Source of the DNA: Thuidium tamariscinum
Lineage: Eukaryota > Streptophyta > Bryopsida > Hypnales > Thuidiaceae
Length of the DNA: 64,000 nucleotides
Direction: 5' to 3'
NCBI GenBank assembly: GCA_947034885.2
Contig: OX344751.2
Span: 19,840,001-19,904,000 of the forward strand
The notes under the pieces: model-generated
Database searches by the model: none
The model's input: the letters and a program-made list of their open reading frames with translations, nothing else
What the model was told of the DNA's origin: nothing
Shown here: positions 1 to 34,901 of the stretch, piece by piece
Layout: the number at the start of each line of letters is the position of its first letter
How positions within the stretch are numbered: the stretch's first letter is position 1
Program-made: the position numbers and the translations under genes

Positions 1-3000
1 TTTATCATGATTAGTATCTTCATCAATTAGCATTGCTTTCACAGGGTAGCATTAGTGAAGATGGACATTTCAAATGTTCCTATCACTGAAGGTGACAAGT
101 TTTCTAACATGTATTTATTACATCTCATGGTAAATCTTGATTCTATTACCATTATATATAGATCTTCTACAATTCTATTTGAACTAAAAATGACCTATTG
201 TTCCTATCTATGCTTTCAATGACATTGAACCACCAATATATTGAGAGCCACTAGTACTTGCTCTCTGTATTTTCAAAGTATGACTCTATAATTTAAATAA
301 GTAATATTGATGTAGTCTTTGGATTCTAATTGCATATTTAATTAGGAAGAACATCACTCATGTCTTGTTGAATGACAAGTTGTTTAAGATTTGCCTTTTT
401 CAAAATTGGTTCAACCATAAGAAAGGAGGTTGGAGCATCAAGATTGGAGTAATTGATCCAAGTGATACTATTTAGCCACCACACCAAATGCTTACATCCA
501 CAACTTCTATAAATAGTTAAATGACTTCACATGCCAAGTTCTTGATTGGGTAGGGAGGTTTGAAAATCAATTGCCTTTGTCACCACTCAAACAAATCTTT
601 TTAGACAAATGAATATGCTTCTCTTCTTTTCATTCTTTAATCATTGTTAATTTGTAAATTGCAAATCTAAAGAAGTAAAATTTCACTCTTGGTGCTAATC
701 TACACAATGAAATGTGTCCACCCGATTTTTTTGCACATATGCTATGAGTTTGTCATATGTCCAATAGTTTAGAATGCCAGTTTAGCAATTTTTCTAATTC
801 CTATGCTTGAATATGTATTTTGAACTTTTTGGAGCTATTCTTTTTTTGTAAGGCTACATTAGACCTCTATTTGCAAATTTTTAATTTTCAATACCTATAA
901 TAGAGGGGTCTTCTATTCACCAAATTCATGGTGATGGTTCACAGGTATTACTAGTATGTAGCGCAATGCATGTCATGTAAAAATGCTTTGAGAAATTTCA
1001 AAGCCTTAGAAGTAGGAGTGCAAGTACTTGCAATCATGTTGTTTTGTTTGGTGGTAACTTCTTCACTTGTCTCAATCTGTCCAATAGCATCTCTTACTGT
1101 TCCTCTAGTGATTGGAGCAGTTTTGTCCATAATTCTCTCTCATTAGCTCTCCAATTTCATCTACAAAACCTTCTACTTCTATGACTACAATCATATTGTT
1201 GTCAAGTACAAAAATCTGGAGATGAAGTAAGGAGCCTCTCTCACATGGCTATCATTATGATGTAAATTGTAGCACGAAGAAATTCTTAGCAATCATTAGG
1301 AGATCATTCGAGTATTAGTTGAGTCTTTTTTTTAATCTTTGTTCTTTGTAGATTGTGAACCTTTTTGTTTGGCTACTTGGATATCAATTTAGCATGTTCA
1401 ATGTTTTTGTTGTTGTAGGTATTGTAGCACCTATGTCATTTTACTCTAACTCCTTCCTTTTCCTTTCCTTTGTATGCAATCATTGCTTGAACTTTCTTTA
1501 ACTGAATTTGTTGTGATGTTGATTTCTTATATTATTCTCCATCTTCATCCTTTAAGAAATTCTATATCTAGGACCCTTCAAAATAGAAAGTTTGTACTTT
1601 GTACTTAATGCTTCATGCAAAGAGCATGCATCGATGGTGAATTATTTCTCTAGAACAATCATGTCCGCATGTAACTAGTAGAGTAGGCAACAAATCATAG
1701 TAGAAGTTCTTAAGTCATAGCCCAATAAAATGTTTCTTTTTGTCTCCAAATGTTTTACTTAAAAAAAATTGGATATTGAAAATATTTTGAAATTCAATGA
1801 GAATATATCCCAATAATGAAATACTACCTTTTTGTGATTCTTTCTCAAATTCAAATTTGAATTTTTATTGAAATCATATTATTTTTGTAGAGAGAATAAG
1901 TCAAACTTGAGTAAAGCTCAATTATATTGAATTGGATTCTTATGAATTGTTTTGGATTATTCAATTATATTGAATAACAAGGGTCAAAATTCAAAAGTAT
2001 GAGTCATGTTTTATCCTTTAATAGATTTATTTTGAGAATTTTATTAGAATTTAGGTTTGTATCATTTTTATAATTATAGTATATAGACACAATTGTACAT
2101 AATCTAATGACAATAAGTTTTCTTCTCCCTAAATTGGTAGTTTTGTACCATTATTGCAATATCAAGCTACAAAAAAAGGATGTTGTGACTTGATTTACTA
2201 GATTAGTCCTTGGATATCGAGTTCATGACAGTCTTTTAAATGTCTTGTTTTCAATTGTATAGAACCTTTGGTTTTATGTGACACTCTCTCTTTATTATTA
2301 TTAAACTACTTTTGATTTGAATCTATTGTTTAATATGTAAGTGGTTTTAAATGCTTTTGACATTACGCACAATGATCATAGAGGTCCATACCTTATAAAA
2401 ATATTATTGTGTATACTTCTTTAGTAGCATTATGGCAATATTAGTAACTATATTTCATCAAGGTTTAGTCAAGGAGTTATTTCAAGATTACAATAAATAA
2501 ATTTCAAACCCAAAATTTTCAATAAAAAATACAAATGGGAGAAATGGTCTTTAAAATCTAGTATTTTTTTAAATATGTATTCTTGCAAAATGAATTTTAG
2601 ATTTGTGGAAAAGAATGTAGGCTTACTGTGCCCAATGGTTAGGGTCACCATTTCCCACCAAATGATTAATTGAAGTCACCAAAAGTGGTTTGAGAGATAC
2701 CTAAAAATAATAAGGTTCATGTGTTTTTCAACAAAATTAAGAAATTGAACTATTTTGGCATCTATTGTTGGAAATATTTTTGTTGATCTTAACCTCTATG
2801 TATTTTAGTATCAAACCCAACATATTGTACTTGCTAATTGAAGTAAAATTAGACCAAAGTTATTTGACATAAACAAATAGAAGTTTTGAATTGTGTTTAT
2901 AATTTTTTCCCTAAAGCTGACAAACTTTTTATAGGTTTAAATTAGATGATAAAATGTATAAAACCTATGTCAAAAAATTAACTTCGTAAAGGATTGTGCA

Positions 3001-3948
3001 ATTGATAGTTTTTTGCCACTACCAAACTCTCAATACTATAATCATTATCACAAATTTACACTAAATTGTATCTTCATTAAACTCAACTTTTAAGCTACAC
3101 TTTTTTCTTCCTAACACCAAGATATGATGTATTATATTTGTCTCTTTTGATGCATTTAAAGTTGGAGCATTTCCTCCATTTTGAGTGCATATGCCAATAC
3201 ATTCATGTAACCTTCATTTTGTGTGTCCTTGATTTTTGACATATGCTATAACTTAAATATATAGAATTGCTTTTGTAGGTGATTATCTATGGCTGACACA
3301 TCTTTTTTTTAAATTGAATTGTGATTGAAGATGTCTCAAAATCCTTACAATCAAATTTTTTGATGATATTGGAAAAATGCTATTATCAAACTTTCTAAAA
3401 AATGATTCTCAAAATAATTATACTTTTATTTTAGAAACTTCAGTCTAGAGATAATTTTAGAAAGAAGGTCCCTTCAACATTTAGAGGTTAATGTGTATCA
3501 TAGAAATCCTCTTTAATTATTATATAAAAATAAAGGTCATCAAAAGAAATTCAAACACAACAATCAAATATAACATCCAAAATTAATATGTAGTCAAAGT
3601 TGAATTAGTAGATTTCTTGATTGTGCTCTAATTCCAATGTCTTTACATTAAACAAGGTTAAGAAAATTCTTTTTTTTCTTTGAATTATTTTAAGACAAGC
3701 TTTTGAAGACATACTAGTTTTTGAGTGATTATATCTTAAATTAAAAAATTATTCTTAAAACACTTACACCATATGCTATTAAGTAGGTGATTATAGAATT
3801 TTTTTGTAATTGATAACCAACCAACAAGGATCCTAACAATATAATTTTTAATTCTAAAGTCAAATCATGTGGATGAAAACAAATTTTTTTATTTGAATAA
3901 AAATTTATTATTTTCATGCATACATATAGTGGTAATCATAAGCATCGA
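1..3948. other. gene-free AT-rich DNA
   Basis: No open reading frame here resembles a known protein or forms a plausible exon chain. The DNA is very AT-rich with many short A and T runs. I see no clear terminal inverted repeats or tandem array, although old degraded repeats are likely. Confidence 0.6.
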
Positions 3949-3950
3949 TA

Positions 3951-4114
3951 AGGTAAGTTTGCTTATGATAGGCCACATGCCATCCAACCCATCATAGGCA
4001 AAATTGTACTAATGATGTATATACCCAAATTTGAAATGTGCTCTACATTTTAGAATATTTTTGCCTCTCTTGGTTGGTAGGTTGGCAGGTTACCTATCAT
4101 AGGCAAACTCACCT
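3951..4114. mobile_element. Short inverted-repeat element, TA|AGGTAAGTTTGC type
   Basis: A 164-bp non-autonomous element. The left end AGGTAAGTTTGCTTATGATA and the reverse complement of the right end (AGGTGAGTTTGCCTATGATA) agree at 18 of 20 bases. A TA dinucleotide flanks each side (3949-3950 and 4115-4116), as expected for a TA target duplication. It encodes nothing. Its first bases (AGGT) match those of two other element families in this window whose interiors are unrelated. Confidence 0.75.
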
Positions 4115-4652
4115 TAGTTTGAACATACCTTAGTCGGGCTTTTGGCCTTGGTATACTAGTGAAGTAGTCATAAATTCAAAAATGAAGGCCAAGGGACTTA
4201 TCACAATAGTCTATGTAACTCTAATTGGGATCAAATGAAGTCATTGTCATGTAGTGATGGGGACTCAAGAATTTATGGGAAAAAGTTGAACATATTGATT
4301 CTTCATAGTATCTATTTCCTAAAAAAGGCATAAGGATAGAATTTTGCCATGTGAATCCATAAATCTTAGATAGTTGAGCTAGACCCAATATTCTAGAATT
4401 AACTTTCTTTCACAATCAAAAAAATAATTACAATAAAAAATATATGGTCCTTAAAAGAAATGAATCCTTGTATAATCTAGGGTTCATTTGAGTCCATGTG
4501 ATAATTGCAAAATTCAAAACACAAGTATGCAGTGTATTGTTGCTACAATTAAATTTAATTTCTAAATTTTTTAAATTTGTGAAACTTAATATCTTTTATG
4601 CATAAAGGAGTGCAAGGACTTTGTTGCCATGTATTATTGGTACAACCCACGG

Positions 4653-4884
4653 TTGTTAGTATGTGAGCATAGAAGTGTAAGCTTATGAGCCTCAAAGATG
4701 ATGCACCTATAGTATAGGTGCTTATACTATGGAAACCTTCTATGATAAGAGTGTATTTATATTATAGGTACCTATATTACAGGTAGTTTTACTATAAACA
4801 CCTTCAAAGGTGGTAGTATATCTACTTATATACATATTAGAAGCTCACATACTCGCATGTTCATACTCACACGCTAGCATTGCT
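4653..4884. mobile_element. Short inverted-repeat element, TATGTGAGC family, copy 1
   Basis: The ends are imperfect inverted repeats: TTGTTAGTATGTGAGC on the left, and CTCACACGCTAGCAT on the right. The interior alternates TATAGGTGCCTATA-like palindromic pieces. A diverged second copy in the same orientation lies at about 12808-13033, so this is a dispersed family. No coding capacity. Confidence 0.6.
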
Positions 4885-6364
4885 GTGGTACAACCAAAAT
4901 AGAAGTAAAAGTGAATTTTCAATGAATTCAAGGGCTTTGTTTCATGGTGTTTGGACATGCAATATGAAAGTTATGAATTCCCCTAAATAAAAGGTAATTA
5001 ATTTAATTCAATTTAATTCAATCCACAAAAATCTTTGAAATTCAATAATTTTTACACTGCACATCAAAACACTACAAAACAAAGTTCATCCATCTATCCT
5101 TGCCAAGAGCTTTTGAACAATAGTAGAAATGTCGCATAATGCCTTAGAATATATTAGATCTCATTAGATCAAACAAATGAAACTAAACAAAAAGAAACCT
5201 ATCTTAAAACCTACTAGTGTCAGAAGTGTGTCTTGTATCATTGCCACATACAATCAAAATAAAATTTAAAATATTTTTCTAATTTTTTATTTTTTTCTAA
5301 TTTTAAAATTCAATGTCATTTATAAGTGCAAAAGTTATATTGCCACAACCCAAGTAAAAGTATAAATAATTTATTAGTTTATTTATTTATAATAATTTAT
5401 AACAACTTTATAATTAAATATTTTTATGCAAAGGACTTGGTTTATCCATGTCCTACATAGATATAAACTTTGAAATATGTTATCTAAAATGCACCACAAC
5501 ATGTTATTAGAATTTTTTTCTAAAATTACTTCAATTTTTTGTAATTTGTGTTATGTGCTTTGTAACTTGTTATTTTTTTATTTTTTATTTTTGTAGTTTG
5601 TGACAAGTAATTCATGTTTAGACTGTAAAAGCATCTCTTTATATATACATGGGGTGGTAGAAGGTGAGACAAACAATGTGGGATATGTTGAATACGTCTT
5701 GAATTTAAAAAGGAACTAGAAACCTAATCTGCCGCCTAAAACCCTAAAACCACCTCCCTGCACAGGGCAACAATTTCATCCGGGCCGATGTCCTACAACG
5801 TCACGGTCATGCACATTTGATGTTCTACAGGGTCATTGTCCTAGGAGTTGCGAAATCATCTAGGTCCCACAATTTGGAATGGGATGTTGTGAAGGATCAC
5901 TTGTGGGACCCACTTTGGAATGCATGATTTAACGCAAATATAACCCTTATTTCATCACTTCGTAATGCTGACGTGTCAGGGGTGGGGTCTGAGAAAGTGA
6001 ACTGTATGTCTGCTCACCCTGATGACAACTGATGAAAGTTGGTGGGTTTGATGAGCAAATAGACGGAGCAGCTGACGTGTCAGGTGACCGTTCGTCAGGT
6101 TTCTGCCCTTTTTATTGTCCTTTCACGAGATTTCTTACAATTAAATTTTTTTATTTTTGTTATTAAACAAATGAACTGAAAACACCAACCGAAGGGGCAG
6201 AGTATCTTTCAGGAGATTCAGTAATTAAATTCTTTTAAGTACGGAGCAGAATTAGAAGAGGATCTTCTGGAACTGACTGACAGTTTGAATCGAGGCTCTG
6301 GCTAGTGACAGCAGAAATTTTAACTAAATTTGTCCATTCATTTGAGACCCCACAATGGACGTTA
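4885..6364. other. Gene-free stretch with a GC-richer island (about 5690-6360)
   Basis: The first 800 bases are plain AT-rich DNA. From about 5690 the composition becomes markedly GC-richer, with CCTAAAACCCTAAAAC near the start and two copies of TGACGTGTCAGG (5969-5980 and 6073-6084). The ACGT cores look like plant bZIP sites. No open reading frame or exon chain follows, so I call no gene. It may be a relic promoter or part of an old transposon. Confidence 0.4.
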
Positions 6365-6618
6365 AATCCTACCGTCGAAGGTGGGCCCAGCAGGGTAAGT
6401 TTTGGGTTTTCCGGGTAAAAGTTAAAAAAACATCAAAAAAACCCTATTTTGGGGCCGTATTGAGAGTATGTTCTAAACCCCACTTTGCTAATTAGGGGTC
6501 TCTACTTGCAAATATGTATTCAAGATTTGCAAAAGTAAAAAATTGCAAAAAATAAAAATTTCTTGCATTTTTTTCTAATGTAAAATCTCTTGTTGGGCCC
6601 ACTTTTGATGGTAGGATT
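6365..6618. mobile_element. Inverted-repeat element, GGGCCCACCTTCGATGGTA family, copy 1
   Basis: A roughly 254-bp element. The left end AATCCTACCGTCGAAGGTGG and the right end CACTTTTGATGGTAGGATT are inverted repeats, each followed inward by GGGCCC. The interior is AT-rich and non-coding. A younger copy with nearly perfect ends lies at 62104-62339, just upstream of the AP2-like gene. Confidence 0.75.
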
Positions 6619-6779
6619 CAACATCTTGCAAGACTAAGATAGTAATTCTAATATCAGTTATAGAAAGTCTTAGTATTTTGACTTCCTCCCAAATATCTTT
6701 CACCAATTGGTTCATTTAACCCCTAAAGGACCAACTTGGTGTTTTTTTTGCAATATGTAAATTTTAGGGAGTTTATTAG

Positions 6780-7400
6780 AAATGGATTTTTTTTTCTTTA
6801 GAATTTCCACACAACATTTTCCTAGGAAGTAGCTTTAAGGCTCACCAATTTTCCTAACTTTTGAATACATGGTTATAAAATTATTGTATGATAAGTAATT
6901 TTCAATGTTTAGTAGGCAACTTGGGAAGTTGAAAAGAATTATGGAAAAATCACTTTCCCAAAAAATAAGAATTTGAAATTGTTTTTTTAAATTTATATAT
7001 ATATTATGTGGAAAGCTTTGAATCATTCCATTTTGATTAATGAAACAAAAGTTATGAGGACTTTTAGTTTGCAAGCAATTATAGATTCATTTCTTTGAAA
7101 TAAACTTTGAAGTCCTTTATTTAAGTCAATTTTCAATCATTTTAAAAAATAAAATAAAATTTGGGTGTAGATTTTTTATTACAACATTACAACCATTGAA
7201 ATTGAGTTTTTTTCAATTCCATAAATGAATTATTAACAATTTAGTATTTTGAATCATTGTCTTCTTCTTTGTATTTACCATTTTTTTCCTACATGTTGTA
7301 CAATTCCAAATGATCTAAAAAATTTCAAGCATATAAAAATTTGCCTTGAAAAATGAATCCAAAGTCTTCCAACCATTTAAAACATTTTTTCATAGAAATA
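6780..7400 (+). repeat. Dispersed non-coding repeat, copy 1
   Basis: This stretch aligns by eye with 39420-40040 in the same orientation, and with 14330-15400 in the opposite orientation. Shared landmarks are AACTTTGAAGTCCTTTATTT, a TTACAACCATT block, CAATTTAGTATTTTGAAT and a GAATGAATCCAAAG-like end. No terminal repeats or coding capacity are visible. The family is old and diverged. Its short open reading frames are not conserved between copies. Confidence 0.6.
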
Positions 7401-10400
7401 TGAGCTTGTGAAGTAGAATTGTTTGATTTTTTGAGGACCATAAAAAGGAATTTGTCAATTCAAAATGCTAATATCTTTGAAATATTTTAGTCACGGCTAA
7501 CTTTGAAATTCACTTTCTTTAAAATCACAACTAATTTTTTCTTCAAACTTCCACAATAATATAGAATATGTTGTATACTACAATTTTCATATATATATTT
7601 TTGATTTTGTCCATTGATGCTCATAGTATGGTTGTTTGAATGAAAACACTTTAGATTTTTATTCAATTTTGTTAGTCACTATATCTTTTAAGGATTTTTT
7701 AGCATCAAAACTCTAGTTCAATGTTTTTTATTAATAGATTTTGTATAAAGGTGTTCATTTCAAACCTTCATTTTTAAGTGTTGGAGAATTTTTTAAATGA
7801 TATTCAAATCTTGGGGGATGTAGTAAGTAGTAGAAGTACAAATATAAGTGCAAACAAATTATAGAAGGCCAAAGAAATAATGGAGATAAAAATTATAATT
7901 TGGTTCATTATACTATAGTGTATAAAATTTACCATTGGATGTATTCAAAATACTATAGAGTGTGAAATAATGGGTCCTATTAGAAAACAAACAAACTTAA
8001 GATCCCAATGTATATTCATATTCTTGGACAAAAGTCTTATTAACTAGGGTTGGCTTATGAGTTGGCTAGTCAAATGATGAAAAATAGTCTTAAATCTTAT
8101 TAATTGGTGATAGCTTATTAGCTAGCGTGTCAAATGATCAAAAATAGACTTAATATGGCTTATTAACTTGATCTTGCTTAAGAGCTACATTCAATTTTAT
8201 ATTGTTCATCATTGATAATGTTTCATTGATTAATATGTATTTCAATTTCAATATAAGCTATGTATTCGGCAGTAAAAGAACTCAGTGTAAAGTCAATAAG
8301 AGATGTGTATGTTCAATTTTGGAATGTATATAAAAATTACCATATTTGTGAACTATACATTCTATACCAAATTGACTAACTGTAATTAGAAAGTAGTGGA
8401 GAAAAATGGGGTGTCAAAAAAATGAAGTGCAAAAAAATGTAGTTTAAAAATAAATATAGTAGATTTTTTTAATATTAAAATAGCATACAATATATTCATG
8501 GTAATTTTTATTAAAATTAATGTATGCCCCTTTTTTAGTGCACCACATTTGAAAATCGTATAATGATAGGGTGCAAAAAATCTATATATGAAAAATAATA
8601 CCCTCCATTTAATTATCCAATGTTCACACCTATATTCTTATATTTTGTAGACTACACCCCTCGAGATTCAAATGGAATGGATCTTAGAAAGAAAATCACA
8701 TTGGACCATAGGATTTTGCATTAGACAAGGATAATGAATATGCAAAAGATATTTGAGAAACTTTGACTATATAGATTGCAAGATATAAGACTTTAAAGTA
8801 AAGAAAACAAGGTTTGTTGCACCTTCCATCAATAAATTTGTTGACTTTGAATCTTTTAAGCATAAAATTGTTGCACTTTAGACTCTAAATTCAAAAAAAT
8901 TATGTTGAAGAATTGAATTAAAAATTTGGAATTATTGATAAATACTAAGTTTTTATTCTTAATAAAATTCTTATTTAGATGTAAGTAGAAGATTAGAGGT
9001 GAGATTGGGGGAAAAATAAGTGTTTTGATTAATAGTTTTAAGATGGTATTAGAAAGAGAGTCAAGGGAACCATGATAGAAATATTAGATGTCACTTGGAC
9101 ACATACAAGCCTCTATCACAAAAGATACTAAGGTGAATATTCTAATGAACATTGTTTGAGTGCAATTGAACATAATTATTTAATATTGCAAAATATATTA
9201 CTTATATTGAATCTTAGTAATTACTCCAACACTGTCAAATAAGACATTGATTGTGATCCAAATCTCACATGTTGAAAAAAACTGTAATGGGGTCATTCCC
9301 TAGGTGTGCACTATAGGGTTGTGTGACCACAACAGGTTATTCTACCTTATTGTCCTTGAATGGATGACAAATGATCATTTTGTATAGGATAGAAGTGCAA
9401 ATGTTCATCCTTGGAATTCTTCATGGAGAAGGAAGGTCTTGCATTGTAGTTTGACCTCCAATGAAAGCTTTTGGATTTTTTTTAAGCCAATGATTACATA
9501 GTATTCAAAAAGGACGATTTTCGTAGTGACCAACTTATTCTAGAAGGGTTAAAGTGGGCATTTGAAGTCTATGTTCTACGTTTGTCTTCCTCCCACTAAG
9601 CATTTATGCAAAAAATCATTTTTTGCAATTGTTTAGTAACACGTGTTCTTCACCACATTTAATCAATTTGGGGCTTCTAATTCAAATTCAAAGTTCAAAA
9701 TTCCCAAATTTTATTATAGGCCGAAAAGAAAAAATTTGAATATTTTTTTTAGGGTTATAAATACAAACTTTGAATGACCACTATAACATCTTGCCTTTTG
9801 TATGACCAAAAATACAACAACAAATGTAATCAAAGTTTCGAGTAGGGAATCCATTAAAGTCCACAAATCAATTTAGTGCAATTCTATATAAGTCTAGCAT
9901 TCCAAGACCTTGAAAAATTGCACTAGTGTAAACTTATTCATTGAATTGGATTGTGGTTCACAATGGACTTCCTACCTTTGTTGTAATAAGTTACATTTTT
10001 TCAACAATTGGTGAAAAAATTATATATATGTATCTACAATAATTAGTATCCAAAATGCAACACCTTAATTTGAACCCAAAAGTAACTAGTGCTAATACTC
10101 CTAGATATCAATGGTACAAAGTATATGCAATTGGAATATAAAAATCTATGAGAGCCTAAGTCAATTTTTGGTAACCACTATAGAAATTTCCAATTTTTTG
10201 GTACAAATTCATTGTAAAAATTGACTTTTAAGACTTTCTGGATAGTTAGATGAGTAGTATGGATTTAGATTTTGTTGGTTCTAGGGTAATCTACATTCTC
10301 CTTCAGGCCATGATGAATTGAATACTTCAAAAATTCACAACAAATTCATACTTTGTCAAAAAAATATAATTTCAAATTGTTCTTAGTATTTCTCACACTA

Positions 10401-10711
10401 ATCTTCATGTGGGAAAAATAATTCTAGGGTTTCAGCAATAGCATGAGGCTATTTTTTTACCAAGGTCCTTATTTTGACCACCATGGGCTATTTAACGTAA
10501 AGTGCATGCAATGTTGTTCAAGGGTTAACGTCCTACATACGGAGGTATGTACAGTGTTATCTTGTGTTTACGTCCTGCATATGTAGGCATACACGTTGGT
10601 TTCTTGTGCCAACTTTCTTCCTTCTTTTCCTCACATGCCTCTCAATCCTTCTCAGACAATTCTAACAGGATTTCAATCACTGGCATCTGTACGACTAAGA
10701 TGCCAAAACAG
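7401..10711. other. Gene-free AT-rich DNA
   Basis: No gene is recognised. A two-unit degenerate tandem repeat of about 65 bp sits at 8032-8153 (units beginning near TCTTATTAACTAGGG and TCTTATTAATTGGTG). Fragments resembling the dispersed repeat, such as TATAGATTGCAAGATATAAG near 8770, are scattered through it. Confidence 0.5.
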
Positions 10712-10857
10712 TGTACTTGGAAATGTGTAAAATATTCTCGTGTACTTGGAAATTTTTATAATATGTCTTGTGTACTTGAAATGTATACAATATGCTTGTG
10801 TACTCAGAAACCCCTGAAATTTTCTCGTGGACTTGAAGTGTACATGATTTTCCTTAG
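10712..10857 (+). repeat. Five-unit degenerate tandem repeat, 28-30 bp
   Basis: Five successive units begin TGTACTTGG, TGTACTTGG, TGTACTTGA, TGTACTCAG and TGGACTTGA, at 10712, 10741, 10771, 10799 and 10828. Each ends in a T-rich CTCG or CTTG segment. The array lies inside a 117-codon open reading frame (10547-10900) that I regard as non-coding, because unit lengths vary out of frame and nothing resembles a protein family. Confidence 0.75.
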
Positions 10858-12807
10858 TACCAAATCACCTGGTGTCCCATTTGACATCATAGGGAGGTAG
10901 CCGCACAATAAATGTGAAAGCCTCCGTGCTCTCTTCATTCAAGACCCTTCCAACGGTTGTGCCCCCAAAACACAAAAAAACAAATCCTTCCAACGTACCT
11001 TGACCTCAACTTTTCAAGCACCAACCAAGCTCATGTTAGAGATGAAGTTACAGATCTAGGAGTACACTCCATTTCATGCGTGATAGAGAATAAAGTTGTT
11101 GAACTCTTAAAGTATGAAAGTGGAGCCTATAGTTTGCAAGAGAATCCTAGTTTAGAAGTGAATCCCAGTTTTTAAAGTTTTTTTTTGACACAAGCGTGTT
11201 GAAGAAACACACTGTGAGGGGTTCCATCAGGAATAGAGGCTGGTTTTAAGCGAGGAATGAACCTGATGCTTTAAAAAATATTTTAAAGCAAATGGTGGGA
11301 ATCCCAATTTGTTTTTTCTGGAGTCCTCATTCCACTGTTAAGTGAATTGGTGATAGTTGATGAGCTTCACTGGCGTGTGACTCTACATGGAAGCCAGCCT
11401 TTAACTTACACATGCAATGCATGACACAATGGGCTCAAAATAGGATTACAAGAGCACCTTTGGGGACTACATTTTGATGCTACATTTGAAACTTCAAGAA
11501 GGGGTGTGCAAGGCTCTTGATCTCACTCAGCTTCATGCATGCTTAGACAAGTGGGTTTTGTGTGCAACAAGAGTCTCAAACAACAAATTTTTTAATTTAA
11601 ATTTTAGAAGCAAAGGAAGATAAATTTAGTACAAAAAGGCCGTGCACTAGAGAGGCAAAGCGTGAGTGTACCCAATTACTAATAGTAGAGTTATCTTAAA
11701 GTGTTTTCAGATGTACCTTGAAATCATGCAAATGCTTGATTGTAGTTGGTGGGGTCTGATTTTTTTACATTTTGGTGTGAGAATCAAGGCAACTTTATTA
11801 GAGTGTGGTTTAAGGTGCCCTAGAGAGTTCTACTTCAAAAATTCATAGAAATTTGATACTGTATCCAAAAATTCTAAATTCTTTTCTGAAAATTCATGAT
11901 TTTCAGTTGCTAATACTGTAAAACTATTTTTTTAGGGAAAACTGCCTCTAATTATGCTGAAATTCCTTATTTTGATGGTTATGGATGCTGCTACCTTAGT
12001 AGCAAATTGAAAACATAAAAAGAAATCCAATGAAAAAGTTTATAAAATTTTATTTGTGTGAGGAAAAAATTGAGGAAAAAATGGTCGAATATGAGAATTA
12101 ATGGAATATTGTTAGTTAGACTCAAAATATATCCCAAATGTTGGTGCAACCTTACTCATTATGAACTTTGGCAATTTCATCTTATTGTGAATTGTTTGCA
12201 AAATAGAATCGTCTAGATTCTTGTTTAAAATGTTAGCCATTTGAATGTGTGCGGGGTGCAAGTTATAAAGTGTGTATTTAATTATCATAAGTTGTAGTGA
12301 CTACCTTTGAAAATAATGCACTATCAATTTATGTATACAATCAAATTTCAAAACTTCAATATGTCTAAATCTAAGTTAACATACTTCACTAATTTATACA
12401 ATATTTGATGTTTAACTCCAATATAATTACATATAGTGAGCTATAAAATATACTTCAAAATCTTTGTTTTTTCTTCTAATAATTGAAAATTTTTCATCTT
12501 GATATTATACAACTATTCATAGTTTGATTTGATATCCAACATGAATTTGCCTTATCAAATTGGGGTTCCAAACATTTAGTAGGCTTTTAGAGATAAATTT
12601 TTGGGTTTAATAACATATTGATATTTTAGTTCTCCATTTAAACCTCACTTTTGTGCAATCTTCAAATTCTCATATACTAATAGCTATGCTAAATATACAT
12701 GTACAATATCAAAAATCAAGACAATGAATTAAAGCCAATCAAAGGCTTGGTAAACATAAGCATCAATAACATATGTCAAAGCCTACCAAAGACCAAAATA
12801 GCAAGGG
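10858..12807. other. Gene-free AT-rich DNA
   Basis: Short open frames at 10957-11175 and 11666-11848 show no recognisable protein and no flanking splice signals worth calling. I see no repeats with clear borders. Confidence 0.5.
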
Positions 12808-13033
12808 TTGCTACTATGTGAGCCTAAAAGTGTAAACTCATGAGCTTGAAAAACTACATACCTATACTATAGGTGTCTATAGTGTAAAAGCTTTCTATAA
12901 TTATAGTACAACTATACTATAGATACCTTAATTATAGGTATTTATGTCACAATGACCACCAATTGATGTTGTAAATCTACTTGTATACATGTGGAGGGCT
13001 CTAGGGAGGGCTCACATGCTCACATACTAGCAT
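12808..13033. mobile_element. Short inverted-repeat element, TATGTGAGC family, copy 2
   Basis: The left end TTGCTACTATGTGAGC and right end GCTCACATACTAGCA are inverted repeats. The interior matches the copy at 4653-4884, with CCTATACTATAGGTG-like palindromic pieces. It is non-coding. Divergence between the copies suggests an old family. Confidence 0.6.
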
Positions 13034-14149
13034 TGTTGACAAAATAGCATACAATTTGTGTTGAAAAACAAAATAAATGATGGAAAGTTCTAAGCGTCCT
13101 CTTCAACCAATAAGACAACACCAAATTAAAAAATTGAAAATGAGAATCCTATATAAAATATAGTAGGCCAAGTACAAAGCAATTGCAAGAAAGGAATTCT
13201 AAACTAATTTGAACCCAAATCCGTGTGTTTTCGATTCGGTATGTTCAATTCCTAATGTATATTGAATCTAGTCATTGGATTTTCAACTTTGGATATTGGA
13301 TTCTAAAGTACTTATTGGATATACAATACATATCCTACAGTATTTAAAGCACTTTATCCAAAGTATGTGCAGAATTCGATGTATGTTTTTGATATTACAC
13401 TTCAAGGACTATGGAGAACTAAGGAAAAAAATGGGGTACATAGGTGTTATATAGTATCCTATTTGAAAGACTCTAAGAGTCGAAGGCCTCAGGAAAAAAA
13501 ATGGGGTATAATGGAATTCAAGAAAAAAAAATGTTATATAATGGAACCTAAGAGAAAAAATGGGGTATAAGTGAACTCAAAGAAAATATGATGTACAAGT
13601 ATTACACAATATCACTTTCTTTAATTCATTAAAGATTGTCAAGAACCTAGAAAAAATAGGGCACCTTTAAATTAACCCCTCAAAAAATTATAATAACCAA
13701 TAAAGTGCCCTCCAAATACCAATATCTATCTTTATTTATTTTTAAATAGCATGCCTTATAATACATTTTACATGGTAAATATCCCCCCATTAAAGAGGTC
13801 ATTATTGCACGTGTATGCAAAATATAAAAGAAGTGCCTCCCTCCCTCCTTGATCTAACTTTAATGGAATTGTTGAAATTGCAAGAGGGTTAGGGTAGGCA
13901 ACTTCATGGAAAATTTGGGAAGATTTCACTATATGGCTTACAAGATTATAATGGTCAAATGTTTCTTGGAAAAAGCCAAATTTGGGACGATGGGGCACTT
14001 AGGGATTAATAGATTTGAGGAATTATTAAGATGGTAATAAAACTATCAAATTTATTTTAAGTTTTTCAATCTTCATTTTCTATATCAAATCTAAAATTGT
14101 TGTCGTATAAAATAAAATGAACCTCTAATTGCCCAAGGCACTATATTTT
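13034..14149. other. Gene-free stretch with a degenerate tandem repeat
   Basis: Between about 13415 and 13590 the block AAAAAATGGGGTA recurs (near 13425, 13495 and 13555, with a variant near 13525) at spacings near 30-70 bp, giving a Lys-rich shadow open frame. The remainder is AT-rich without a recognisable gene. Confidence 0.5.
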
Positions 14150-15400
14150 GATGCCTAAAAAACTTTCAATTTAACCCCTTACAATTCTTTGACTATGTTT
14201 TCTCCCAAAAGTGCTTGAAAATTGTCATTCTAAATGTAAGTACTAAATTTTGGATAGAAATCATTTTTGGACACATGTAGTTGTAGAATCTTGTAGTATG
14301 CTTGTTTGAAAATCTATAGAAAAAAAAGTTCAAAATGGTTGTAATTCTTTGGATTCATTCTTCAAGGCAAATTAGCTACATGCTTGAAAATTTTTAGATC
14401 ATTCAAAGTTGTACAACATGATACGAAAAAATAGTAGGTACCCCGGTAGGTACAAAAAAGAAGAAAATGATTCAAAATATTAAATTTCTTATAATTTATC
14501 AATAATGTTGAAAATACCAATCCAATGGTTGCAATAATGTAATAACTAATCTACATCCTCTAATTTTATCTTTTTTCAAAAAATATTGAAAGTTGAGTAA
14601 AGTAAAGAAGTTCAAAGTTTATTTTAACCCTTTAGGGCCTAGCAAACCAAATTTGGTTCTTTTAAATTGAATTTTGGGAATTGGAACACTCTCTTGGCCT
14701 TAGTTCCTCTTGGGGTATGAACAAGTGTGAGGGCACGGGTATTCCACTTCCAATGAGCCATTGACCATCAAATTTGGAGCAATGATGATTTGTCTATTGC
14801 AATTTGAAGTTGGGAATTTTAGAGTTTCGAAATGCACTGTTGAACATGTTTCTTTATTGAATTTGTTTGTGTATAACTAAAGAGAGCATGCCAACTTCAC
14901 CATAGTGTTCAATATAATGAACTCTATTTTCAATAAAAATTTCATGGGAAGTTGAGCTTTTTTGTAATTACTATGATTTTTCAAAGGCATAAACTTTAAA
15001 AAATCATATAAATTTCATTTTTTTTCCAAAAATAAATTTAAAATCACATTAGATAGAAGATATGAATTCTTATTTGTAGAAAAATAATAATTTAAATTAA
15101 ATTATAAAATTTTAATATGAAAATTTGATTCTAGAAGAATTCAAGAGGTTGCTTGGGGCTCCTTAGGCCCTAAAGGGTTAAAGTAGAGAATTCATAATTG
15201 TTGGCAATCAAAAACTCCTCATAACTTTTGACTCATTGATCAAAATAGAATGATTCAAATCTTTCTATGTATATATCTATCTACTAAACCAATTTCAAAT
15301 TTTGATCTGGAAAAAAAGTGATTTTTTTTTCAATCTCTATGAATTGCCAATTTACAAAAGAATAACATATTAAGCTATAACTTTTAATTCATATTTCTAT
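14150..15400 (-). repeat. Dispersed non-coding repeat, copy 2 (interrupted)
   Basis: This is the reverse orientation of the repeat at 6780-7400 and 39420-40040. It is interrupted by a TTAA-flanked element at 14628-15177. Its outer part (14150-14400) also aligns directly with 63640-64000, sharing TTTGACTATGTTTT, CAAAATGGTTGT and TTAGCTACATGC. The uninterrupted copies show what this site looked like before the insertion. Confidence 0.6.
14628..15177. mobile_element. piggyBac-like non-autonomous element with TTAA target duplication
   Basis: A 550-bp segment is bordered by TTAA at 14624-14627 and 15178-15181. Its ends are perfect 14-bp inverted repeats, CCCTTTAGGGCCTA. A TTAA duplication together with ends starting CCC is the known signature of piggyBac elements. 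Homologous flanks at 7081-7115 and 39735-39765 lack the insert and run straight across, so they act as empty sites. No transposase fragment is visible inside. The alternative is an unrelated family with coincidental ends, but the empty sites make a real insertion likely. Confidence 0.75.
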
Positions 15401-16053
15401 GTATTTTGATCTTTTGTGCACATTAAAGATATTCTTTGTCCCCAAATTCTAATATATTTTGGGTTGAAAATGTAGAAATCTTTAGTCACACATACACACT
15501 CAAAATTTGTTATGTTGCTAAGTTTAGCAAGCTAATCCGGGGGGGGGGGGGGTTGACACCTAAAGGCCAAAGGATATTTTATAAGAAGAAAAGTCTCAAA
15601 TTGCCAATTTATGATGCAATGTCTTCACAATTATTTTCAAAATTCTAACCATACAAAAATATATCAAACAAGTAAGGCAATGTGTGGAAAATATTTCAGT
15701 TCATTTGACTACATGGATTGAGATATTTTGATGTTTGAAATGAGGTGAAAATCTTTTTATTCATTCTTCCAAAATGAATTTAGCAAACTTTGGGCCTTTT
15801 TGGAGTAAAACTTTGGCTCTATATAAAGATGAGATATTTAACCATTCATAAATATAAGATGTTGGGTTCATTCATGTAGAATTTTATAAGCAAATATGGA
15901 GTTTAATAGCTAACTCTAAGTTATTTTGCAATGCAAGGGGATTATATGAACTGACAATCTATTATTCATTCTTTTGATGATTTCTTATACAATGAAGAAA
16001 CTCTTTTATTTGACATGCAAGTGGTGAAAAGTTAGAGACAAACATTGGAAATT
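15401..16053. other. Gene-free AT-rich DNA with a poly-G run
   Basis: This contains a run of about 14 consecutive G at 15539-15552 and a fragment resembling the dispersed repeat (near 15705). No gene is seen. Confidence 0.5.
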
Positions 16054-18520: not shown

Positions 18521-18811
18521 CTCAACTCAGGTTAAGTTACTCGGTCTTTTAGGGTAGGAGCACCTGTCACTGGGCATTCAAGCGAGAGGCCAATATCTTA
18601 GAGAAAGGTTCAGGTGGTGTCAGTTGATATTTTCTCGGTGGCTGGACACAAATTTTAAGGGAGATGTACCCACAACAATCGATACAATAAGCACATCTGG
18701 ACATGATCTACTATAGTGCAAGGCAAAGCAAATATTTTTGGAGGTGCATTCACAAGTACAATGGGGATTGCAAAAAAATTCATAGTTTTATCTCTTGAAT
18801 TGAAATTACTA

Positions 18812-19139
18812 AGGTAGGAGGTCCTTCAATGGAGTATCTAAGGATTAGAACTGAATTTGGGGGAGGTGAAACATCTTGAAATATTTTTTAGTAAATTTTT
18901 AAAAAAAGACAAGTGGAATTGACAACAAACCCAAGTTGTTTCATATTTTTTGGAATTTGGTGGAATTAGTTTAAAAATTATGAAGTTGAAAAGGCATAGG
19001 GCTCTAAAATGGAGCACCTCCTAAAATGTACATAGTTTTTTATATTGTTGAAGGGTATGAAAAAACAACATATACAAACAAGGTACATTTAAGGAGGTGC
19101 TCCATTTTAGAGCTTGCTTTGTTTTAGAACCTCCTACCT
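18812..19139 (+). mobile_element. TA|AGGTAGGAGGT element, copy 1
   Basis: A 328-bp element with perfect inverted ends AGGTAGGAGGT and ACCTCCTACCT, flanked by TA on each side (18810-18811 and 19140-19141). The interior carries the family landmarks CTAAAATGGAGCACCTCC, TTGACA..AAACCCAAGTTG and a TATGAAAAAACAACAT block. The flanks (18780-18810 and 19140-19280) align with 58215-58380, where the element is absent and a single TA is present, so the TA duplication is shown directly. Confidence 0.85.
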
Positions 19140-20314
19140 TATGAATTTTGAAAGACAAAAGTTGGATTTAATCCATCGCCAACATCTAGAATCATCCAAT
19201 TCCAATCATTCAAGAACGACTATCCCATTCATTGCTTCCTACTTTTGTACTTACTTATGTGTCATTAATTTATTGGTCCAAGAATTTATTGGAGAGAAAC
19301 TATAAATGTTTTGGTACATGTATTAGATATAGCAGTTTTCGAGTGGTTTTGGCCAAAACATAGCCCAAACCATTTACGGGTTAAGTCATTGAAAATGGCT
19401 TGGCTACCTTAGCTAATTGAGGAATGTAAGAGATTTTCAACACAATTTTGTGGAAAAAATGTGTTGTGGTACAATAGAACATCTCTAACTCAATTGGTCT
19501 AGGACTAGTCTAATACATTGGCTTATAGAGGGTTATTGGCTCATAGAAGGTCAAATTTAGTTGTAACCTTTGCAATGTGACCTAGCCTAAGATCCGTTTA
19601 ACACATTGAGTTACAAAAGGTTTACTAGCTCACAAAGGGCCAAATTAGAGAGGTTCTACTATGCAATGGTCTTTAAATAAGTCTTGCAACCTACCTATAG
19701 TTTTGAGGCAAATACTCAACTTACAAAGTACAGATGTGGTAGGTAAATTTAAATTCTCTTGTGAGATGTAATTGATTTTGGAAACACTAAGTTAAGCTTA
19801 AAGGTACAATGCTACATTTGGAGAATCTCATTTTATAAGATTACAAGTAGTGGATTTCAACCATCTTTGGAGTTGAGAGGATCAACATTACTACATGCAT
19901 GCTTCTAGTGATTGTTGCTTGCAAGCATAGCATAGAAGTTTTGTGAGGAAAGAAATTGATGTTTGTCTATAATATTGTGTATGTGATGTTGCTAGGAGTT
20001 CTATAAGCAAACTTTGTAAAATTTCAAATAGTGTTAGTTAACTCGTGAGTTAACTTTGCACTACGACATAGTATAAAGCTCATTGAATGGCCACCCAATT
20101 CTTTTGATCTTAAACCCATTAAAAATAGGTTGTAGCAAATCAAAGATTGAGTACAAGAAAGATATAGATCCATAACAAAGACCAAGTGTGGACACCATTG
20201 AATTTGATATAGGAGGAGATACCTCAAAAAAATATCTAAACATTAATTTCTACAATTTATACCAAAGCAAATGAAAACTATACTAGTAGCTGAAGGTGGT
20301 ACTACTCAATGGTA
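19140..20314. other. Gene-free stretch; dispersed segment and a degenerate duplication
   Basis: The first 140 bases match 58241-58380 (shared CCAACATCTAGA and CATTCATTGCTTC blocks), so this is a dispersed segment. At about 19500-19640 a roughly 110-bp segment is duplicated (ACATTGGCTTATAGAGGG and ACATTGAGTTACAAAAGG). No gene is recognised. Confidence 0.5.
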
Positions 20315-20641
20315 AGGTAAAAGGTTCTAGAAGTGAGCATGCTCTAAAATGGAGCACCTTTATAAATGTCCAGATTTTGTACATGTTGCTTTTTCATAGC
20401 CTTCAAGAATGTACAAACTCTGGACATTCTAGGTAGTACACCACTTTAGAGCCCTATACTACTTCAACTTCAAAATTTTGTAACTAATTCCACAAAGTCT
20501 AAAAAAATATTAAACAACTTAAGTTGGATGTCGATTCCACTTGTCTTTTCAGGAAAATTTATTGAAAAATATTTCAAGATATATCACCTCACCAAAAATT
20601 AGTTGCAGCCCTTAGATGCTCCATTACACGACCTCCTACTT
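20315..20641 (-). mobile_element. TA|AGGTAGGAGGT element, copy 2 (inverted)
   Basis: This runs in the opposite direction to the copy at 18812. It starts AGGTAAAAGGT after a TA and ends ACCTCCTACTT. The interior matches the family, with CTAAAATGGAGCACC and a GTTGCTTTTTCATAGCC block. The right TA has mutated to TG. It is non-coding. Confidence 0.75.
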
Positions 20642-21169
20642 TGGTGGATGTGCTACTTTATTGCAAAATAGTTGCTAGTGAGCAAGACAAAATGTAAAAT
20701 TCATGTTATAGGAGGCTTCTACCATATTGTAGCTTTCTAATGATATCCAATTTGACAACATTTATTAAAGTTTTTTTAATTCATGGCCTTTGCCTTTGAT
20801 GTGTATGATTTTTATAAAAGAATCACATTAAAGCCACATAGAAGAAATCTTTACTTAGATAGTGTGTTTTTTGGAACATGAAAGATGTGGACAATGATGT
20901 TTTTTGAATACACATGCAATCAAAATTTTAAAAACATCACATTTATTTTTCAATTAATTATTATGTAAACCCATGAAAGACAATAAAATAATTGACAACA
21001 AATAGAATTCCTATTTCTGAACACTAAACTTTCATATGTTGGTTAAGGTAATGTTAATAGGGTAATTTTGACAAGATATTCTTATAATGGAATTAAAAAG
21101 GAAAAAATTTGAAGGACTTTATAGTAGGGGTGCAAGACTTATTGGACAATATTGGACAACTAATGCATA
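20642..21169. other. Gene-free AT-rich DNA
   Basis: I see no gene, clear repeat or structural signal in this stretch. Confidence 0.5.
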
Positions 21170-24767: not shown

Positions 24768-27700
24768 CTACAATTTTTCAGTGAAGAAATTAATTACAGG
24801 CGACTGTATTTCTTTGACACTTTGAATGAGGCGAAGTTCCAGTTGCTTGGTTTTTGGCTTTGGTAGAACCCCTGCCTCGTCATAACCTGCGATGGTATTC
24901 CTTAGCACAGCCTGAAAATACACAAGGCGTCAGAATTTCATTCCCGAGACAAATCTATTCCATTCGTTACGTAAAATGCAACAACTTCAAGACGAAGGAA
25001 AACTAATGCTAACCATCAAACATTCGTGGAAAAAATCATGCAGAAAGGAATACGATATTGTGAATGTGAGATGTCCTACTTGAAGGCTCGATACCGCAAG
25101 CTCTGCTGCTTTATCCAAATCATCTGGAAATTTCTGCAAAAAACAATCACGAAACCACTAAGGTAGAAGGCTCTTAAATGGAGCGGGTTCTAAAATGGTG
25201 CCCTACATTAAATGTAGAGTATTTGTACATGTTGCTTTTTCATAGCCTTCAGCAGTGTACTGACAGTGTACATTGTAGCTAGGGCACCATTTTACAGCCC
25301 TATGCCCCTTCAACTTCAAAATTTGATAACTAATTCAAAAAAGCTCAGAAAAATATGAAACGACTTGGGTTAGATGTCAATTCTACTTGTTTTTCAAGGA
25401 AAATTTACTGAAAAATATTTATAGAGGTTTTACCTCCCTGAAATTCTGTTTCAGTCCTTAGATGGTCCATTATAGGACCTCTTACCTTACTGTCTCAATC
25501 CACTTCTTATAAAAAATTTAAGAAATTACTCTCAGCCAATTTTAATAATACCATCAATACCGATCTTGGAAATTTGCAAGTGCTTCAGGAACAACTCACG
25601 ATGGACAGTAAAGTCATCACAACAGCAGACTAACCCATTATGACCAGAAACTTACGTGACTCCATCCCAATAGAAGTGCTGTCATTAGATCTCCAGTTCC
25701 CTGTAAGTTTTCAGTACATAAAGCGAGAGTATTAGAAGCCTTCATCGAAAAAAAGCTGTCAGAAGTTATTACACAAACTAGGTATCAATAAGCAGGGAAG
25801 AATAACAGATGATGTTTAGGATTTGCTCAGACCCTGCCTCCAGCAACAAATAGCGCCAACTAGCTAGCTAGTGCCTTAGATGGACAATAAGTAACCTCCT
25901 ATGTCACTTACACAAGGTAAGTAACAGGGGATAAGAGATTTTAGTTCGCTAAAGTATCATTACTTGGATGGCTGCGGGTGGAATTGGCACTTCAAGCCAT
26001 TGGTATGGAAACGATTATCTATCTTGAGCACAGCTCGGGGAGTTAAATCGTGGAAATGGATGTAAATTCAACGCCAGTTAGTTAGCAGAAACTAGCACCA
26101 ATTGACTACCTGACGCTACTTTGATAGTGCGGGCACCGAGCAACTGATTCCAGTTAGCAAAAGTCGCTATTTGGTGGGTGCAGGAGGGGTCTTATAGGCA
26201 GAAATGAGAATGAATATACAGGATAATAACAATCGCTATAGAACTAGATAACAATGGTCAGAAACAAGTCGCAACAACGTAACCTTTATGCTCTTCCAAA
26301 TGACCTAGGAGGGTGAAGTAAAATGCTTTAAAAATGCTGGCAGGTGAAATTGCCATGCATTCTGTACAAAAGATAAATAACAAAAGGGGTTCAACCTCGC
26401 ACCATACAGATTGTTCTCAGACACGAAGTAACTAGATTTGGGCGTACAGTAATGTACCGTAAAGTAAGAATGTAGCTTTGGTAAGACTATTTTGAACTGT
26501 TTCGGTGCCTTTCCCTGCATGACCCACAATGACAACACCTCATAAGCCTCAACCTTTTAAATGGCATAAAGAAGTCTTCCAGTTCAAGAATGACACTTAG
26601 AAATATTTGTATGCAAAAGATATAAGAGGCCAGAATCCAATTGATAGATTCATTAAATCCATGTCTCAATTTCAAAATCCTTGAGGTGAACATTGTGCAA
26701 TGCTATTCAATTTAATACCGACACGCTTTTGGGAACATGCTCGGTTTTGAGCGATCCTACCTCATTCCTTTGGTCATTGTAATGAATTGCTGGACTGGAC
26801 AAGTTAATTCCATGAAAACTAGATGCATCCTGAAAATTATATCACAAATCCTTTCATCACACTAAATGAGCCCAGAAATCACAGGACTTACTTTGCTTTG
26901 TACGTGGCTGCCAAGGACTGTCAGCATGTTGTCTATTGATAGACTTGTGATTACCACCTGCAGACAAATGATTCAGAGTTTCACATTAGTAAGAATAAGG
27001 CCACCTTCCATGATGCACGCCACAATATAAGTTCAAAACATATCTACATCTGATTATCTTTTGCTAGTCGAACAAAAAATACAACGGGTACAGTTAAGAC
27101 TTTTTACACCCTCGCTGGTATCAGGCGTGCCTAAATAAATGTTAGACATTGAAGTTATAGAGTATAATGGGACGAAGATTGGACATTTCAGATGAAATCT
27201 TGGATGAAAATGGATGTAGAGTGTGTAAAAGTTGACCAACATTTATCAACAAAACTAAAACTATTGGCCAACTCATGTCTATTAGGAAAGCCAGTACCTT
27301 CGAAGGACCTGCAGCATGCAGATCAGCACAAGCTTGCAATGCCTCTGCCTCTGTTTCAATACTGCCAACTTTGCCTTTCAGTTTCCTCTTTTAAAGATAA
27401 ATTTTTTTCTAAGACAGGAAAGAGGAATATGGATGGTACTGAGCAGTTTCCAATTCATACATCAAACTAGCAAAAAGAGAAGGGGAATATTTTGAGAATG
27501 TTAATACACATGAGCATTTAGAAAATAGTTCTTCCAATTTGAATCAAAACAAGGCACAGTGACGCTACCGACGACCAGTGAGTTGTTCCGCTTCAAAATG
27601 ATTTGGTGTAATCATAGTTGCCACTGGAACTACCTGCAACAAATTGGAAATGTTCCACAGATTTATAATCCATTGAGGTCTATCTACATGCGAACCATAG

Positions 27701-32242: not shown

Positions 32243-33746
32243 TAGCGCGGTACTCCAATCTGCTCAATGGCACTCCGATTGAAATTGCTAGACAATTTTT
32301 GTGTTCGGACTTTTGGCTCGACTCGCAATACGAGTGGTGCGGGAAAGTATTTGATGCCGCCATTGCCAAGCATTACCCACATTTCTGAGACTCGCTTGGA
32401 GGATTCACTTCCGATGCCGCCTCTTACTTGTCCTCCGTTGGAAGCGACTGTCATATCTCCAATTCCGACAAGCGCGAGCATCTATGAGGGCTCTACGTCG
32501 GGAAAAAGGAACAAATTGGTGCTAGCGGTAGGACAAAAGAAAAGCAAAACCGCACCCAATACTATCACTTGGTGTTGGCAAGAAGTATGGACTTGTAAAT
32601 TTGCACGGGCAAAAGGTGAATTCAACTCTGATGGCGATTTGGTTGGGGTCGTTTGTCAAAGTTGCACAACCGTCATGGGGAGACGCAAAATCATGGTTCC
32701 AAAATTGGACATTATAGAGAAACATGAAGGCAAAACATAGCTGCCAAGAGGCTGGGGTCCTAGAACCTCATCTAAAGAAAGGAGAACGTTTACATCAAAT
32801 GAAACTGTCAACATTTGAAACTCTGTAAGCTCTGGATCAGGCAAAAGAACGTTGGATCTGTAGTTGAGCAACTGCTTGGTCGCTTGGAGGGCAACTTTAA
32901 GAAAAAGGGAGTCTAATTTTCAACCTTCTTGTATATTCTTCTTCATGGTCGTCCAATGTGTGATTATGAGAGGCAATAGCAGTTGCTAAAGCAACTTAAG
33001 GTAAAAAATCTTCCTAGAAAGCATTGGTTTGAAACTACAGGTTGGGAGATGAGTGAACTCTTGCATGCATTTGTTCTTATTGCTTTGAAAGGTATTGTTC
33101 ATGCTGCTATTATAATTTCAATTAGTGCTGATGAAGTTATAGTTGTGGACAACACATGTTGGGTGGGTGTCTACATTTATGCCATGTAGAGTTGGGAGAG
33201 GATGCATCATCTATTGCACCTCTCTTATATTTCTAAGAATGGAACTGCAAACCATTTGATTGATGTTATCATGCATGTTTTGTTGGGTGAGGGTGGCTTA
33301 TCTCGTGAAGAAATTGCTTATAAGTTGGTTTGTTTTGGTGCTGATGGAGTAAGCACGTTCCAAAGCACAAAAACGGATGTGACAACCCAAATCCGTGAGA
33401 AATGGGCCCCATTTCTCATTGGTGCCAATTGTGTAAGTCACTGTTTGAACCTTGTTGTTGAGACATTGTTGAAGTTTCTGATGATCGCCCGACTTGAGAC
33501 CTTGTTTCAATCTATTTATGCTTACTTCTACTACAGCAACCACCGTCACGCTAAGTTGCAAAGACTCGCTAATCTCATGGAAATTAAAAGTAATAAGATG
33601 GTAAGAAACGTTGAAACCACATGGATATCTATGAAGAGCCCTGCTACTTGAATTAAGTCCAAGTATTGCATGCTCTTAATAAAGATGGGGATCAATATGA
33701 CCTCTATCCTTGGTCACAAGCCGCAATCTGGGCCTGCTGAGAATTT

Positions 33747-33942
33747 CACTATAAGAAATTTGTATTTTAGATGATGGATTTTAGGTGACATCTAATGTAG
33801 CAACCTATGTTTTTATGTCCGAACCAATGTTTGCCATAATATCAAGATATTATGGCGGATGTTAGTTTGAACATAAAAACACATGTTGCTACATTGGATG
33901 TTACCTAAAATCCGTCATCTAAGATACAAGTTTCTTATAGTG
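33747..33942. mobile_element. CACTA-type non-autonomous element inserted in the hAT relic
   Basis: A 196-bp element with inverted ends CACTATAAGAAA and TTTCTTATAGTG, and a 3-bp duplication TTT on each side (33744-33746 and 33943-33945). CACTA (En/Spm) elements have ends starting CACTA and make 3-bp duplications. Most of the element is one long imperfect inverted repeat centred near 33845. It splits the hAT core, whose reading resumes on the far side. Confidence 0.88.
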
Positions 33943-34312
33943 TTTTGATTTGTTGGTTGATGTGGAATTGCTCCTCTTCCTAGCCTGCTTTATTTCCTTA
34001 GTGAATACTATGCACAACTTGATGAAGCTATCTTAATCTCGTGATATTTTCATTTGTGATTTTCTGGAAGTTGTAAAGCTGTGCCAGGGGAAGCTAGCTT
34101 GCATGTTCCTAAACTTTGCAACAACTTATTCCAAAGTTGACTTCCAACGATATAGTGAGCTTGTCTCTCTATCCTGCCCCGATGTCCCTTTGACCTAGCA
34201 ACTACTTAACGTAGTCTCAAGTATCTCACACTTGTTGTTCAAGTTTGAGAAATCACAAGTCTATGGCCGTTGCTATGACAAGTAAACGGGGAATCACATC
34301 TTTGTGACACAA

Positions 34313-34540
34313 CTCTAGAAGAAAACCATGTTAAAATCTGTGAAAACACGTCATGTAGTTTGTGTTGAGTTCCTATTTCAAAACGCAATGAAAATGCAGT
34401 CAAAATGCAAAAAAACACAAAAAAAACATTTTTTGTGTTTTTTTGCATTTTGACTGCATTTTCATTGCGTTTTGAAATAGGAACTCAACACAAACTACAT
34501 GACGTGTTTTCACAGATTTTAACATGGTTTTCTCCTAGTG
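34313..34540. mobile_element. Fold-back CACTA-type element inserted in the hAT relic
   Basis: A 228-bp near-perfect palindrome. Arms of about 110 bp pair around an A/T-rich centre near 34427 with almost no mismatch. The right end reads ...TCCTAGTG, so the end repeat is CACTAGGAGAAAACC. The left end has changed to CTCTAGAAGAAAACC. A CAA duplication flanks it (34310-34312 and 34541-34543). It would fold into a very long hairpin if transcribed. Confidence 0.88.
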
Positions 34541-34666
34541 CAAGAAGACTACAATAGAATTCAAGACAATGTTGAGGACCAATTTTCAGGCAAGGTCCTT
34601 CATTTCTAATCTTTTTTTAGTTTTGGTTTTCTATTGTTTAAATGTTTCACCTTTTATGTATACCTT

Positions 34667-34901
34667 ACAATGTTGGATTGACATTAGGCTTCCAATTATT
34701 TGTGTTTGCTTCATGTGAATATTTGCAATGTTGGATTGACATTGGACTTCCAATTTTTTTTGTTTGCAGCTTCATGTAAGTATTTGCAAGGTTGGATTGA
34801 CATTAGGCTTCCAATTTTTTTTGTTTACTTCATATAAGTGTTTGCAATGTTGGATTGACATTTGGCTTCCAATTTTTTTTGTTTGCCACATGTTAGTGTT
34901 T
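34667..34901 (+). repeat. Four-unit tandem repeat, about 58-62 bp
   Basis: Units share ATGTTGGATTGACATTAGGC, then TTCCAATTTTTTTTGTTTGC and a short CTTCATGTAAGT-like tail. They follow one another without gaps. They lie between two coding fragments of the hAT relic, in what may have been an intron or later inserted DNA. Confidence 0.8.

Follow-up and report, generated by a model that had tools for sequence, protein, structure and literature searches.

Elements of the piggyBac superfamily are familiar from animals, but accounts of them in land plants are few. In one survey of animal piggyBac terminal inverted repeats (TIRs), CCCTT was the 5′ motif with the highest conservation (PMC10813416; also PMC12732532), and 'CC[C/T]T' has been given as the TIR hallmark (PMC2872659). 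For plants, a term search of the open text of a land-plant TE review returned six TIR superfamilies and never piggyBac (PMC9033089), and the same kind of search in a MITE survey of 207 plant genomes returned five superfamilies plus Micron, again without piggyBac (PMC12550479). In contrast, a plant MITE review includes PiggyBac among seven angiosperm MITE superfamilies (PMC10004981), a plant TE review lists PiggyBac for plants, following an older classification (PMC10794571), piggyBac-like elements have been said to occur in plants (PMC8086355), red algae have been named as hosts (PMC12732532), and the repeat table of the fern Ceratopteris contains 1230 PiggyBac copies (PMC6890710). An earlier note on the DNA analyzed here, made from the letters alone, had called such elements sparsely described in plants; the silence of the two broad surveys agrees with this, but several papers do name plant piggyBac, if only in passing, and for the literature outside subscription papers and Repbase the statement seems fair but not absolute. 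Insect piggyBac has been used in plants because its excision is clean, and a review states that every DNA transposon so far found in plants leaves a footprint behind (PMC10905368).

The insert and its empty sites

We analyzed a window of 64,000 nt from Thuidium tamariscinum (assembly GCA_947034885.2, contig OX344751.2, positions 19,840,001–19,904,000, forward strand). The earlier note had reported a 550-bp insert with perfect 14-bp inverted ends and TTAA on both sides, lying within a dispersed repeat, and this structure was reproduced exactly to the base. The features of the locus are as follows (window positions).

14321..14627, + strand: dispersed host repeat, left part
14624..14627, strandless: TTAA target-site duplication, left copy
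14628..15177, + strand: non-autonomous MITE, almost certainly of piggyBac type; 550 bp, longest stop-to-stop frame touching the element 58 aa
14628..14641, + strand: left TIR, CCCTTTAGGGCCTA
15164..15177, − strand: right TIR, TAGGCCCTAAAGGG on the + strand; 14/14 match to the left TIR
15178..15181, strandless: TTAA target-site duplication, right copy
15178..15326, + strand: dispersed host repeat, right part
6945..7390, − strand: host-repeat copy without the element (empty site); target reads TCAA
39604..40041, − strand: host-repeat copy without the element (empty site); target reads TTAG

The TIR, matched at 14/14 positions, fits the CCY/CCCT start, in line with the proposal that CCC-starting ends beside TTAA are a piggyBac signature. 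When the window was shuffled locally 100 times (Markov-1, 2-kb blocks), perfect 14-bp inverted pairs bounded by TTAA and no more than 6 kb apart never arose; the same scan of the real window returned two. The second of these, at 34331–34522, was rejected as an insertion signature because its arms belong to a 110-bp palindrome that continues past the TTAA. Near 58.7 and 62.7 kb, two imperfect pairs were likewise set aside as parts of one long inverted repeat.

Joining the flanks of the element and aligning them to the window revealed the two empty sites, with 349 of 461 columns identical at 6945–7390 and 330 of 445 at 39604–40041 (both within 74–76% identity). Both copies are continuous through the insertion point and lack nothing there but the element and one TTAA, with small indels elsewhere, and their targets each differ from TTAA by one change. 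The repeat copies that had been noticed to cross this point without the element (near 7081–7115 and 39735–39765) are therefore empty sites by alignment as well.

Elsewhere in the window, Pfam analysis of 33 different ORFs gave only ATR-type domains above the cut-off and no transposase; an ATR kinase gene occupies ~46.5–57 kb. An ORF judged by eye to be AP2-like was supported neither by Pfam nor by any convincing match in the PDB, and decayed hAT-like transposase pieces at 32246–36956 were seen by eye only, with no Pfam match above the cut-off. The region 34315–34538 is a near-perfect palindrome with 110-bp arms at 99% identity and a 4-base loop. Rfam gave no match on the window at gathering threshold and 13 sub-threshold matches at E up to 1, 10 of them on this palindrome, including plant miRNA precursors on both strands that were probably matched by shape alone; judged from its sequence, the region is a candidate for a young foldback or a source of small RNAs. 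Copies of a second repeat family (~332 bp) lie at 18808–19141, 20313–20645 and 25159–25489; they are 77–79% identical to one another and have inverted ends near TAAGGTAGGAGGT...CCTACCTTA. The long inverted repeat at 58595–58895 and 62561–62825 is ~80% identical overall, with blocks up to 98%, and encloses ~3.7 kb with ORFs.

The MITE family and its TTAA borders

The exact 18-mer TTAACCCTTTAGGGCCTA (TTAA plus TIR) was found at 255 ends (125 + 130) in the 363,211,507-base assembly of 19 contigs, window included, and its reversed control at none (0 + 0). It was also absent from a viral contig collection, where plant DNA is not expected. The first 100 listed places resolved into 37 inverted pairs, including that of the window, and 26 singles, and no listed pair spanned more than 0.95 kb end to end. 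The search for inverted TTAA-plus-TIR pairs that the earlier note had suggested thus recovered at least 37 pairs, and all 36 fetched ones (those besides the window's among the 100 places) proved to be the same element, matching the window copy at 90.5–96.7% identity. The length was 529–557 bp in 34 of the 36 (35 of 37 with the window copy), the two others carrying inserts; the 37 copies diverged from the family majority by 2.0–7.3%, and the longest frame of the majority sequence was 71 aa. The family is multi-copy, non-coding and homogeneous in length.

Some individual copies had further features. Two MITE copies, L040 and L031, carry additional insertions that bring them to 817 and 936 bp, and the L040 insert bears, by eye, inverted ends of its own, GAGCATCCCCACC...GGTGGGGATGCTC. 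L096, L097 and L098 on contig C11 are MITE copies within longer segments that are 93–98% alike on this one contig, and five of nine atypical CCTAY ends also lie on C11.

Since the inverted pairs had been selected for TTAA, the far ends of the singles were used as an unselected test. Far ends were read in 22 of the 26 listed singles; five of the 22 were truncated copies, leaving 17 readable ends. TTAA was present in 15 of the 17, in 13 cases directly after the TIR and in two after a small tip indel (L080, L085), and this proportion is conservative because singles are copies without an intact second end. Borders other than TTAA, which the earlier note had named as evidence against its reading, were confined among these ends to two cases of ATAA (L086, L089). 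The family thus has the TTAA target-site duplication by which a piggyBac MITE is recognized.

piggyBac transposases and the host genome

A profile search with PF13843 (DDE_Tnp_1_7), the transposase domain that the earlier note had proposed to look for, examined 658 candidates in this genome, of which at least 116 were scored as matches (best E 5.7e-80), compared with none in any of 14 control genomes; the one transposase family for which both ends were located has TTAA/CCC at each. A 1023-aa frame without internal stops was present in at least 11 of the matches listed. Twenty of the 116 matches were read as loci, and nine of these (L056–L064) were copies of a single transposase element, the one with the 1023-aa frame. 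L056 was 99.92–99.98% identical to six other copies over ~3,985 bases, and three 5′ stretches, that of L060 included, were at least 99.94% identical over ~1,620 bases. All nine copies end with GGCGTTTCAGGG followed by TTAA (CAGGG, then TTAA) and then run into nine different flanks, and the three fetched 5′ ends start with TTAA followed by CCCCTAAACGCCGG (TTAA, then CCCC). Because this element was found by its protein, its ends are free of selection for TTAA. From the coordinates, its length would be ~5.1 kb, and the sequences suggest that the family was amplified recently, its copies being ~99.9% identical with open frames.

A downstream end of GGG followed by TTAA was also present at L045 and L047, and nine of the 20 loci showed no AGGGTTAA end in the 1.5 kb that follows. 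The L046 ORF matched the piggyBat transposase (E 2.5e-31) and PDB entry 6x67, annotated as 'Transposase' (E 5.9e-25). Three motifs whose roles we take to be those of the catalytic Asp residues were present in 16 of the 20 loci (13 in one frame; L048, L054 and L055 by eye), nine of the 16 being copies of one element, and L049 and L050 matched two of the three. At position 3981 of L058, in gene orientation, the TTAA of the piggyBac element abuts TTAACCCTAAAGG sequence, as if two elements had one TTAA in common. L050 (C8:23933884, − strand) and L051 (C8:23941055, + strand) are near-identical transposase copies in inverted orientation, ~6 kb apart, and other close inverted transposase pairs occur among the matches listed.

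Among the 20 loci read of the 116 matches, none was a transposase-bearing element with the exact TIR of the MITE, and none resembled the MITE internally. The closest transposase end seen, at L045 (CCCTTTAACGCC / CCCTTTAACGCCGGGCCT), was similar to the TIR mainly over the first seven bases. On contigs C1–C3, the shortest distance between any of 46 listed transposase matches and any of 99 listed TIR places was 116 kb. Two leads to a partner, one through the short terminal matches L070 and L077 (extended into L090 and L091) and one through the atypical L095/L101 end, yielded no piggyBac transposase and were discarded; the stretches from the atypical ends L090, L091 and L101 gave no tblastn match to four piggyBac ORFs.

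The plant host assumed by the earlier note agrees with two lines of evidence, namely plant-type light-harvesting genes on element-bearing contigs and depletion of CAG/CTG (CWG). PF00504 (chlorophyll a/b-binding) had 49 matches, several of them on C1 and C3, which carry MITE copies, and others on further contigs; the control gave matches in one of 14 genomes, a cyanobacterium. One LHC protein tested against single-domain PDB chains matched 8htu and 7xqp best (455 bits), followed by chains at ~440 and then at ~398–403 bits, and the multi-domain 9vfj chains score higher in sum. We take 8htu and 7xqp to be moss chains, those at ~440 bits to be from seed plants and those at ~398–403 bits from green algae, so that the closest relative would be plant LHCII. 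The observed/expected ratio of CWG was 0.33 for positions 1–16000, 0.80 and 0.63 in the next two stretches, and 1.00 in the ATR gene (46001–57000); the host repeat, with 3 sites where 24 were expected, gave 0.13, and the element, with 1 site where 9 were expected, gave 0.11. CWG depletion in repeats may be a remnant of decayed CHG methylation, a plant habit. The host is eukaryotic and photosynthetic and is most likely a land plant, perhaps of bryophyte grade, the grade being a guess from LHC and CWG.

Alternative readings and comparison with known systems

We are highly confident that the insert is one copy of a non-autonomous piggyBac-superfamily MITE family in a photosynthetic, most likely land-plant, genome. 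Of the other eukaryotic superfamilies that duplicate TTAA, a Kolobok or Sola3 origin is very improbable. Sola3 elements share the TTAA duplication with the insert. So does Kolobok, which is TTAA-specific, but its termini are given as 5′-RR...YY-3′ in the accessible text (PMC9587614), whereas the element begins with CCC and ends with GGG; a start with C where Kolobok has a purine excludes that superfamily. Against both stand the scored piggyBac transposase matches in the same genome, at least 116, with one family bearing TTAA/CCC at both ends. It is still less probable that the insert is a Stowaway (TA) or Tourist (TTA/TAA) MITE with the flanking T and A present by chance. TTAA is palindromic, and at one isolated copy a TA or TWA duplication with a shifted TIR is formally indistinguishable from a TTAA duplication. 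The family data separate these possibilities, because copies differ in the bases immediately beyond TTAA, and the full TTAA was found at 15 of the 17 unselected far ends; the ends of Stowaway and Tourist elements also differ from CCC ends.

The least probable explanation, which we regard as hardly credible, is that duplication of larger host repeats, and not transposition, accounts for most of the spread of the family. Five of the 36 fetched copies (L010, L014, L032, L036 and L042) have common flanks and therefore evidently multiplied inside a larger repeat, and L096–L098 sit in longer similar segments. However, in the other 31 fetched copies the flanks switch exactly at TTAA, differing by eye over the 12 bases beside it, and the window copy has empty-site paralogues. 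A piggyBac MITE that moved by transposition remains our reading of the family.

Based on knowledge of piggyBac elsewhere, a piggyBac transposase (DDE_Tnp_1_7) produced from another locus of the genome would mobilize the MITE in trans, binding the CCCTTT ends, cutting at TTAA and pasting the element into a new TTAA. A broader proposal is that the host is a land plant, probably a bryophyte, with a live native piggyBac system, in which MITEs are mobilized seamlessly at TTAA by several diverse families of transposase, including at least one that was recently amplified (99.9% identical copies with open frames); we put this forward tentatively, with slightly less than even confidence. If true, plants would have native cut-and-paste elements without a footprint, and a native plant piggyBac could be used to test the claim that all plant DNA transposons leave one. 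The presence in one plant genome of 116 or more transposase matches, a very young family among them, and of 255 intact MITE ends suggests that annotation pipelines may overlook the whole superfamily in some lineages. The kind of element is already known, but a plant is an unexpected setting for it, and the interest lies in how abundant and how recently active it seems to be there.

Among the systems compared, Wuneng and Microuli are found in rice. They resemble the window element in their TTAA duplication, a likeness known from their description and not from TIR sequences (PMC2872659, available text). Kolobok has the TTAA duplication in common as well (PMC9587614, in part), in contrast to its RR...YY termini, which are CCC...GGG here. 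Comparison of the TIR with 12 published coral strings identified CMITE family II of Acropora as the closest, with 12 of 14 bases identical to its TIR CCCTTTAAGCCCTA and 7–10 for the others (PMC2872659, as far as accessible); a match this good arose in 3 of 100,000 full shuffles of the TIR and in 0.12% of those that kept CCCT in place. Like the window element, CMITE family II makes TTAA duplications, is short and lacks a transposase gene, but it measures ~100 bp as against 550 bp and lives in an animal host, and the sequence comparison covers the TIRs. At the level of the superfamily (PF13843; Trichoplusia ni piggyBac and piggyBat), the element shares TTAA and CCCT ends, and the genome contains transposases of the family with relatives in the PDB; unlike T. 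ni piggyBac and piggyBat, it is a MITE without a transposase, and its host is a plant.
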